This document shows, one piece after another, positions 3,575 through 47,668 of a stretch of 64,000 bases of DNA (position 1 is its first letter; each line of letters starts with the position of its first letter). The notes beneath the pieces were generated by a model. That model did not search any database, was not told the origin of the DNA, and saw only the letters and a program-made list of their open reading frames with translations. The position numbers were made by a program, and so were the translations under genes. This stretch comes from an uncultured archaeon (GTDB lineage Archaea; Nanobdellota; Nanobdellia; Pacearchaeales; GW2011-AR1), in the NCBI GenBank assembly GCA_902385655.1, contig CABMGO010000003.1:176456-240455 (forward strand). Direction: 5' to 3'.

Positions 3575-3629
3575 GAAAATTATAAGGAGAAATTGTTTTT
3601 AAAATTATCGAGTTACTATTTCCGCCCCT

Positions 3630-3688
3630 CAAATTTTGCACCTCGCAAAAATCTCAAAATAAATATTTGTTTTGCTCGGAGCGAAATT
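3630..3688 (-). repeat. tandem-GA hairpin family, copy R1
   Basis: minus strand AAATTT-CGCT-CC-GA-GCAAAA..TTTTGC-GA-GG-TGCA-AAATTT. Confidence 0.7.
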
Positions 3689-3708
3689 TTCGCCATCCCT
3701 TTCGCGAC

Positions 3709-5754: not shown

Positions 5755-5779
5755 AAAATAAAATGAGCCCACCGACTCA

Positions 5780-5840
5780 CAATTTGCATTTGCTAATTTT
5801 TACTTTTGTTGCTTCGCAAATTTTATGCAAAAGCGAATTG
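5780..5840 (-). repeat. tandem-GA hairpin family, divergent copy R3
   Basis: CAATT-TGCATTTGC..GCAAAAGCG-AATTG; lies between the two tRNA-Ile 3' end copies. Confidence 0.55.
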
Positions 5841-5925
5841 CTCGGATTTGAAATACGAATTGCGATTCGCCCCATAATATTGGGAGATTATCAACATATC
5901 TCATTTCATTCGATATGCTACAAAT

Positions 5926-6043
5926 GAGCCCACCAAGATTTGAACTTGGGACCCCCGCCTTTCTTAGCGAATGCTTGAAATTACGTCCCTAACGGGACGC
6001 ACTCTTATAAGAGCGGTGCTCTACCAGGCTAAGCTATGGGCTC
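5926..6043 (-). tRNA. tRNA-Ile(TAT) with ~45-nt intron at canonical position 37/38
   Basis: Acceptor GAGCCCA/TGGGCTC, anticodon stem CCGCT/GGCGG, loop CTTATA^A, T arm CCAAG-TTCAAAT-CTTGG. Confidence 0.85.
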
Positions 6044-8147: not shown

Positions 8148-8290
8148 TTACGAGGTTTTAATTTTCGAATCCCTGAAATATGCCAAAATGGTGCGACGCT
8201 CCCACCTTGCTTCTCACTCTGCCCTCGTTCGAATCTCTACAAAAAATTTACAATTTTTTCAAAACCCCAAATAGTTTTCTAAAGAAAATA

Positions 8291-8363
8291 CGCTCCCACC
8301 GAGATTCGAACTCGGGTTACTGCCGTGAAAGGGCAGTGTCCTTGGCCTCTAGACTATAGGAGC
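8291..8363 (-). tRNA. tRNA-Glu(TTC)
   Basis: GCTCCTA/..GGGAGC acceptor, anticodon stem CTGCC/GGCAG with loop CTTTCAC, T arm CCGAG-TTCGAAT-CTCGG. Confidence 0.93.
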
Positions 8364-8611: not shown

Positions 8612-8671
8612 ATTAGATTAATTGAAAGCTCGTTTATAAATTTTCCCTCCGCAGAGAGGGACTCTGAAGGA

Positions 8672-8701
8672 TGGAGAGTGTAGAACAAAAATATGCAGGA
8701 C
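8672..8701 (-). repeat. dispersed 30-bp repeat GTCCTGCATATTTTTGTTCTACACTCTCCA
   Basis: exact 30/30 match to 15069-15098; diverged copy at ~38896-38926; partial at 26671-26685. Confidence 0.85.
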
Positions 8702-8712
8702 AGGTGTAACCT

Positions 8713-38931: not shown

Positions 38932-38989
38932 CCAATTTGCATCTCACAAAATTAGTTTAGAGAATTACCTTTTGTTCGAAGCGAATCGG
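38932..38989 (-). repeat. tandem-GA hairpin family, copy R4
   Basis: minus strand CCGATT-CGCT-TC-GA-ACAAAA..TTTTGT-GA-GA-TGCA-AATTGG. Confidence 0.7.
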
Positions 38990-39051
38990 TCGTCTCAAGT
39001 GTCCCCATCTGCATGGGGAACATTTATTAATTCAAACGACGAAGAGAAATT

Positions 39052-46133: not shown

Positions 46134-46205
46134 GGCGGAAGGTGTGAATCGGACACACGTCTCACGAGCCACAGTCGCGCATTCTACCATTGAACTACAT
46201 CCGCC
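46134..46205 (-). tRNA. tRNA-His(GTG)
   Basis: anticodon arm CGCGA-CTGTGGC-TCGTG; encoded G at -1 opposite C73; TCCGATT T loop. Confidence 0.85.
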
Positions 46206-47217: not shown

Positions 47218-47352
47218 AGAAATCTTTTGTTTATAAGATTTATTCAGATTTTTTGTCCTAGACAGGGAGTGAAAATAGAAGCAATGCCTAAAGTATGCAG
47301 AAAAAACTTCTCGCCGAATCTCGGACATTAGATTTAACGCTCCCTCCTGCTC

Positions 47353-47414
47353 GCAGTTTGCATTTCGCAAAATTGTTTATCCCTTTAAAATTAGTTTTGC
47401 TCAAAGCGAACTGC
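47353..47414 (-). repeat. tandem-GA hairpin family, copy R2
   Basis: minus strand GCAGTT-CGCT-TT-GA-GCAAAA..TTTTGC-GA-AA-TGCA-AACTGC. Confidence 0.7.
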
Positions 47415-47495
47415 TCGGATTCGAAATAAAAGTTGCTACTTTTACAAGTATATCGAAGAGATTAATTGAATTTCACTTCATTCAATTCAATAGAA

Positions 47496-47668
47496 CGCTC
47501 CCTCCGAGATTCGAACTCGGGTTTCCACCGTTCCCCACATCACCTTTGAAAATTCGAGATGAATTCTCGCAGGAAACACAGTGCCATAGAGATGGCGTGA
47601 CAGTTGTCTCATCGACTCGTATCTTCCGTATGAGAGGGTGGAGTCCTTGGCCTCTAGACTAAAGGAGC
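47496..47668 (-). tRNA. tRNA-Glu(CTC) with ~100-nt intron at position 37/38
   Basis: exon 1 GCTCCTTTAGTCTAGAGGCCAAGGACTCCACCCTCTCA, exon 2 C-GGTGG..CCGAGTTCGAATCTCGGAGGGAGC; same exons as tRNA-Glu(TTC). Confidence 0.85.

Follow-up and report, generated by a model that had tools for sequence, protein, structure and literature searches.

How does the 3' end of a tRNA-Ile gene come to stand twice in close succession, with hairpin-forming DNA between the copies? The question arose from an earlier note on the DNA analysed here, a stretch of 64,000 nucleotides from an archaeon (the window). The note likened the duplication to attachment-site duplication at tRNA genes and remarked that the intervening DNA is far too short to encode an integrase. 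The repeat is indeed present: the 13-bp sequence AAATGAGCCCACC is exact at both 5761-5773 and 5922-5934, 161 bp from start to start. The copy at 5922-5934 is the 3' end of an intron-bearing tRNA-Ile gene and the other lies downstream of it, the order being intact tRNA, about 148 bp, displaced 3' end. In a cross-tRNA control, the chance of a match as good as this one at one locus alone is about 0.6%. We propose, with a probability of roughly 60%, that the duplicated tRNA end and the DNA between form an integrated, coding-free mini-element of about 80-160 bp, which is probably mobilised in trans by a tyrosine recombinase.

The tRNA-Ile unit and its relatives in the window

The tRNA-Ile gene was missed by ARAGORN as run, presumably because of its intron; the anticodon, TAT, and the intron were read from the sequence. 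The displaced copy of its 3' end proved to be longer than the earlier note had given: besides the repeat, which reads GGTGGGCTCATTT in the tRNA sense, it comprises TTCAAATC, and hairpin B stands between these two parts (Table 1). The likeness that the note saw between this segment and the one at tRNA-Glu(CTC) held up, both containing hairpins A and B, with spacings of 161 and 158 bp, respectively.

In the tRNA sense, a unit consists of the tRNA 3' end and a few bases, hairpin A (in the longer units), an inverted T-arm piece, a direct T-arm piece, hairpin B, and finally the remaining T-arm and acceptor strand. Both T-arm pieces derive from the unit's own tRNA, and hairpin B splits the displaced T-arm copy. 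Hairpin A is optional; across the 11 copies compared, its stem varies while its loop, of the type TTGA..GAAA, is conserved. The T-arm and its inverted copy are separated by 14-24 nt in most units, and by 38-63 nt when hairpin A or other sequence intervenes. Inverted T-arm copies exceeded the control level, with a score of at least 18 for 10 of 38 tRNAs against 2.8% in the control. The units, about 80-160 bp in size, contain no reading frame and, as had been claimed for the tRNA-Ile locus, cannot accommodate one the size of an integrase.

In an alignment of 22 copies of hairpin B, 91.5% of the cells pair, a percentage that is biased upward because the copies, chosen by pattern and by eye, were also those that provided the structure. 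Twelve of the 15 pairs vary on both sides, and the covariation score was 0.51, compared with 0.19 after shuffling and at most 0.14 with slid pairings. As judged from the alignment, the double changes are stronger evidence for the structure than the percentage paired.

The units at tRNA-Glu(TTC) and tRNA-Thr(GGT) are weaker than those at tRNA-Ile and tRNA-Glu(CTC), and tRNA-His (46134-46204) has no unit. A second dispersed repeat family, intergenic and with CTGCAGGA / GGAGAGTGTAGAA motifs, was observed at 8660-8720 of the window and in a tRNA flank at C3:67544 (L015).

Table 1. Units, their parts and solitary hairpins in the window
Feature	Position	Strand	Basis
Solitary hairpin B away from tRNA genes (C3:180080-180149)	3625-3694	-	model R1 match, 72 bits
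Displaced copy of tRNA-Ile 3' end, GGTGGGCTCATTT	5761-5773	-	exact repeat
Hairpin B of tRNA-Ile unit, splitting the displaced T-arm copy (segment R3 of the earlier note)	5776-5843	-	22-sequence alignment, strong covariation
Direct T-loop-region copy TTCAAATC, left part of the displaced tRNA fragment	5845-5852	-	sequence reading
Hairpin A of tRNA-Ile unit; variable stem, conserved loop type TTGA..GAAA	5893-5919	-	comparison of 11 copies
tRNA-proximal core copy, GGTGGGCTCATTT in tRNA sense	5922-5934	-	exact repeat
tRNA-Ile gene with intron, insertion target; its 3' end is the tRNA-proximal core copy	5925-6043	-	Rfam RF00005, 53.4 bits
Displaced copy of tRNA-Glu(TTC) 3' end	8196-8206	-	3'-end alignment against downstream DNA
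Inverted T-arm copy, tRNA-Glu(TTC) unit	8223-8237	-	11-nt inverted match, 0/37 controls as good
tRNA-Glu(TTC), bears degenerate unit	8291-8363	-	ARAGORN + Rfam
tRNA-Thr(GGT), bears unit	37391-37462	+	ARAGORN + Rfam
Hairpin-B-like segment, tRNA-Thr(GGT) unit	37490-37550	+	sequence reading
Displaced, slightly diverged copy of tRNA-Thr(GGT) 3' end	37552-37572	+	score 35, 0/37 controls as good
Solitary hairpin B, 1.5 kb from tRNA-Thr	38926-38994	-	model R1 match, 67.7 bits
Displaced copy of tRNA-Glu(CTC) 3' end, GGAGGGAGCGTT	47336-47347	-	3'-end alignment
Hairpin B, tRNA-Glu(CTC) unit	47350-47416	-	covariance model R1 match, 77 bits
Hairpin A, tRNA-Glu(CTC) unit	47466-47490	-	hairpin A comparison
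tRNA-Glu(CTC), long intron, bears unit	47496-47668	-	RF00005 match (G000 C3:223951-224123)

Units in the genome, the order and genus g64

The genome under study (G000; 836 kb in 8 contigs, 85% complete) gave 39 tRNA matches, 38 of which had enough downstream DNA and were tested. For each tRNA, the final 30 nt and a further 6 nt were aligned to its own downstream DNA and, as a control, to the downstream DNA of the other tRNAs. A copy of the tRNA's own 3' end at score 22 was found at most about 300 bp downstream in 21 of the 38, compared with 1.8% of the controls (binomial 4e-27), while in the upstream search 1 of the 38 reached this score. The score of the tRNA-Ile locus itself, with a chance of 0.6% for each tRNA, was attained by 13 of the 38 (binomial 1e-19); 17 had no copy at the threshold used. 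The spacings cluster near 112 bp and near 150-160 bp, and a few of 259-293 bp correspond to two units in tandem. At score 24, 16 of the 38 tRNAs had a copy, as against 2 of the 34 tested in the relatives G001, G002 and G011, both of these belonging to one cluster of neighbouring tRNA genes in G002; in G007, 3 of 24 tRNAs reached this score. Repeats at random positions near tRNAs with no common intervening sequence, which the earlier note had named as the outcome that would speak against it, are not what was found.

A covariance model of hairpin B listed 25 copies in this genome, of which 15 lie within 400 bp of a tRNA, a zone making up 3.7% of the genome (binomial 9e-16, a figure for which most of the tRNA-linked copies came from the model's own training set). 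Of 200 genomes of the order, the model matched 25, and 16 of these belong to species of genus g64 (G121-G136; E-values of 1e-17 to 1e-10); among the matching genomes, G000 alone had contributed to the training set. Every one of the 16 species searched in g64, a genus other than that of G000, bears hairpin B, 21 copies are present in G006, and the hairpin was found in both orientations. A scan of viral contigs with a hairpin pattern gave no match.

Some copies sit elsewhere than behind a tRNA. At L282 (G130:C4, 1400-1700), hairpin B lies 5' of tRNA-Leu; here the duplication covers the leader and tRNA positions 1-12 and is accompanied by an inverted D-arm piece, so that the sequence reads as a mirror-image insertion at the D-arm. 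At L036 (G000:C3:14203-17256), the 3' end of a gene for an 88-aa protein (..ELYMKAKVRGWEIK) is imperfectly duplicated 146 bp away with hairpin B between, indicating that protein genes can be targets too. Together with the solitary copies, these cases extend the target range beyond tRNA 3' ends. At L265 (G126:C18, about 1450-1640), hairpin B lies within the T-loop of a tRNA-Gly(CCC)-like gene (GGGTTC..hairpin..TCCCGG), which may be broken or spliced. At L066:1020-1541, shortly upstream of tRNA-Thr(UGU), the last codons of a 173-aa reading frame seem to come from a hairpin B copy that overlaps its end. Nor is hairpin B the sole passenger, since at L302, L305, L311 and L314 other hairpin families follow tRNA-Arg in an identical position and layout, again with the 3'-end copy.

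An AlaRS scan of named genomes gave best identities of 65-69% (Pacearchaeota / Nanoarchaeota MAGs) and no close relative of the source species, which is placed in Pacearchaeota through these nearest named records, and the comparison of filled with empty sites was therefore made in g64. There, hairpin B matches lie mostly 20-160 bp from tRNA genes, usually together with tRNA 3'-end copies, and units occur at tRNAs for Arg, Cys, His, Ser, Leu, Met, Pro, Thr and Gly. The 3'-end copies are mostly exact over 10-24 nt at 92-159 bp, a few being diverged or gapped; lengths of 13-24 nt at about 99-159 bp predominate. From the tRNA outwards, a unit there begins with the tRNA end and an inverted T-loop, followed by a direct copy of tRNA positions about 46-53; hairpin B then replaces 54-56 and leads on to 57-73. 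In most units the displaced copy begins at T-loop position 57, preceded by a constant hairpin end (for example, GAGTA or GAGCA).

Of two species in which tRNA-Gly comes after tRNA-Arg(CCT), G122 has the latter filled with a 107-bp unit and G130 has it empty. In G122 the displaced copy is followed by the flank CATTAATTTTAAAAACCC, which in G130 stands directly behind tRNA-Arg(CCT), and after in-silico excision of the unit 136 of 168 aligned bases were identical. A tRNA-His with the same synthetase gene downstream is filled in G136 and empty in G122, with the common flank CAAAGATT.TTTAATG.TGATTTG; in a second tRNA-His neighbourhood, G133 has a unit and G128 and G123 have none. Likewise, no unit is present at tRNA-Arg(TCT) in G122, G123, G120 and G133, while others have this site filled. 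Since a unit can be present at a tRNA locus in one species and missing from its ortholog in another, the units are insertions, and insertion has occurred many times over.

Units also occur in tandem, two at tRNA-His in G134 and two at tRNA-Arg in G127, and tandem units were read at L287, L314, L024 and L020. Long duplications were at first viewed as target-site duplications; tandem units with a common left end account for several of them (L287, L005), not with certainty for all. In L257 (G135:C25) and L271 (G125:C1), several T-stem and acceptor bases are not the same in the displaced fragment as in the intact tRNA, as though the fragment came from another tRNA allele; such loci can help to tell the ancestral copy from the other.

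Candidate movers and rival explanations

Because a unit encodes nothing, the enzyme that moves it must act in trans. Two tyrosine recombinases are encoded in G000, one of 394 aa on contig C5 and one of 413 aa on C1, which are 25% identical; the C5 protein has a Pfam Phage_integrase match and a weak match to XerA structures. At tRNA-Thr(UGU), there are three copies of the 12-bp core CTCTGCAGGCTT: one within the tRNA, one 5.9 kb downstream and a third 158 bp beyond that. The C5 recombinase lies in the first interval, and the second interval is itself a mini-unit, with both hairpin A and hairpin B. This makes the resident tyrosine recombinases the best candidates, since one of them has its core and its tRNA in common with a unit. 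A reading of the 6.1-kb element and the hairpin unit as one element was ruled out by the third core copy, which makes them two in tandem. The resemblance to attachment-site duplication noted at the outset thus finds support in related hairpins between the copies across the genome, in orthologous sites that are filled in one species and empty in another, and in a core common to a unit and a recombinase element.

The second recombinase adjoins tRNA-Asp on C1, a contig of 22.8 kb that overlaps C4 and C5 by exactly 127 bp; the C4-C1 overlap ends at, and the C1-C5 overlap starts with, the 12-bp tRNA-Asp core CGGTTTGGGCGT. If 127 is read as the assembler's k-mer, the breaks fit a graph with both C4-C1-C5 and C4-C5 paths, as expected if the tRNA-Asp element were present in part of the population; judging from the contig ends, this 22-kb element appears polymorphic for integration. 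Besides the recombinase next to the tRNA, it contains a PD-(D/E)XK nuclease and an IS200-like Y1 transposase (L071, G000:C1:15000-22782). Neither recombinase element has hairpin A or B at its own ends. A relative of the C5 recombinase is present in 64 of the order's 211 genomes, 10 of the 16 hairpin-bearing g64 species among them, and all 16 have PF00589 proteins of some kind; as backing for a recombinase as the mover, this co-occurrence is weak.

The units are inserted at tRNA genes, are spread over tRNAs and species, have a structured hairpin in common, show a fixed T-loop junction in g64 and in one case share their core with a recombinase element. We suggest that the element enters the T-loop or T-stem of a tRNA gene, where its left end would bring a replacement 3' end, leaving the tRNA intact and the severed original 3' end at the far side. 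Repeated insertion at the same place would build tandem arrays, the newest unit presumably adjoining the tRNA. The bulk of the element would resemble an attachment site, with a copy of its own tRNA's T-arm and an inverted T-loop at a roughly set distance, split by one or two hairpins that are possibly looped out. With hairpins A and B looped out, a unit amounts to about the tRNA's T-arm and an inverted copy at a roughly fixed distance, from which we hypothesize that the hairpins are either tolerated or recognised as extruded structures. The mover would probably be a tyrosine recombinase acting in trans, of the kind borne by larger elements of the same genome, presumably through a circular intermediate.

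What speaks against the mini-element, besides the ends of the two recombinase elements, the patchy occurrence of C5 recombinase relatives and the wider target range, is that each unit matches its own tRNA, the inverted T-arm included, which one fixed attP does not explain: either the units diversify along with their target, or insertion copies target sequence. Target copying is the main rival, although we consider it unlikely. A transposase or reverse transcriptase would copy the hairpin into a staggered cut, with a fixed nick at T-loop 56/57 and a variable one downstream, and the tRNA copy would then be a target-site duplication rather than an attP-borne core. Such a process accounts for every unit matching its own tRNA; duplicated blocks ranging from about 10 to about 65 bp would also fit it, as would left-junction T-arm pieces, which resemble templated filler. 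Yet the tandem units with a common left end also give long duplications, hairpin B occurs in both orientations, and the candidate enzymes are largely missing or unsuited: reverse transcriptase is absent from G000 and from 14 of the 18 hairpin-rich genomes searched, no Cas1 homologue was found in any of 20 genomes (G000, 85% complete, and 19 relatives), and the sole Y1 transposase, on C1, has ordinary IS200-like ends that, by inspection, do not resemble hairpins A and B. Local template-switching during replication at the quasi-palindromic T-arm, making the inverted and direct copies and the hairpin in place, would explain why the two T-arm pieces adjoin and may be the source of the T-arm filler. 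For hairpin B it is largely refuted, since unrelated loci and different genera share a single family of uniform structure, and we regard template-switching as very improbable.

Full-size integrative elements do sit at tRNA sites in this genome, and the units could be their decayed remnants, reduced by internal deletion to the ends. The two preferred sizes, the single conserved hairpin family across genera and the lack of hairpin B at the ends of the known full-size elements make this improbable. Covarying stems, and displaced T-stems that still pair though they differ from the tRNA (L271, L257), would instead suit a selected, immobile RNA element of the tRNA 3' trailer, serving processing, stability or termination. 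We disfavour this explanation as quite improbable, given that orthologous sites may be filled or empty, that copies stand in tandem, in both orientations and also far from tRNAs, and that 17 of 38 tRNAs lack a unit at the threshold used. Integration of a coding-free mini-element remains our preferred reading.

Relation to known systems

The 3' ends of tRNA genes can be targets of casposons. These share with the units site-directed insertion in archaea, carried out in their case by a dedicated integrase (PMC10359463, PMC6614799), but no Cas1 homologue was found in G000 or 19 relatives. MITEs and REP-like hairpin elements, which are mobilised in trans, are similarly short, non-coding, hairpin-bearing, dispersed and non-autonomous; the units differ from them in being site-specific for tRNA arms and in restoring their target, and no terminal inverted repeats of a resident transposon were found. 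Integron attC sites are flanked by outer boxes, RYYYAAC and GTTRRRY. By inspection the units have no such boxes, their hairpins ending in CGARC..GAGYA in the G000 alignment and in g64; nor do they have a cassette gene, and the tRNA end is duplicated at each insertion. What they have in common with integron cassettes is an imperfect hairpin kept more by structure than by sequence, as hairpin B is, arrays that presumably grow from a fixed site, and probably an enzyme in trans; attC clusters without an integrase are known, also in Archaea (PMC9668308). Tentatively, and with doubts of our own, we suggest that the units could be a mobile-DNA class of their own, att-only cassettes about 100 bp long. 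Extrusion of their hairpins would present a tRNA-like site to a tyrosine recombinase, and tRNA genes would serve as the platform on which units stack, making up an integron-like yet gene-free system in DPANN archaea.

If the mini-element reading is true, selfish DNA can be hardly more than an attachment site, and the units provide a natural series of insertions in many tRNA isotypes for the study of integrase choice and of changes of tRNA target. They also bear on the frequent disruption of archaeal tRNA genes and on mis-annotated tRNA fragments in MAGs of minimal-genome archaea. No earlier description of such mini-elements was found in the literature searched, which left most subscription journals out of reach. 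In a natural archaeal population, a tRNA-Thr gene of Caldiarchaeum was likewise disrupted by a recombinase element with a fragment left, though that insert is 1.8 kb and predicted to encode the recombinase (PMC3293823).

Tyrosine-integrase elements and tRNA genomic islands (PMC8371274; Islander, PMC4383910) agree with the units in targeting a tRNA gene, restoring it, leaving a displaced 3' fragment at the far end, and recombining at a tRNA loop with a short core; archaeal integrases act at tRNA loops (known or inferred), with cores down to 8-13 bp (PMC8371274). The units, too, have an intact tRNA at one end and the displaced 3' fragment at the other, and empty orthologous sites with the same flank exist (tRNA-Arg(CCT), G122 versus G130; tRNA-His, G136 versus G122). 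At 80-160 bp they have no integrase of their own, which makes them only a non-autonomous relative of a tRNA-targeted integrative element, and they differ further in being gene-free and present in dozens per genome at many isotypes. The smallest integrated element in a survey of Thaumarchaeota measured 2.6 kb (PMC6563490), and tRNA fragments in Thermococcaceae stem from inserts of about 9-23 kb (PMC9897764). Next to these, the Pacearchaeota units look like the smallest integrative elements known and, if they are such, lower the size floor of integrative elements more than ten-fold.
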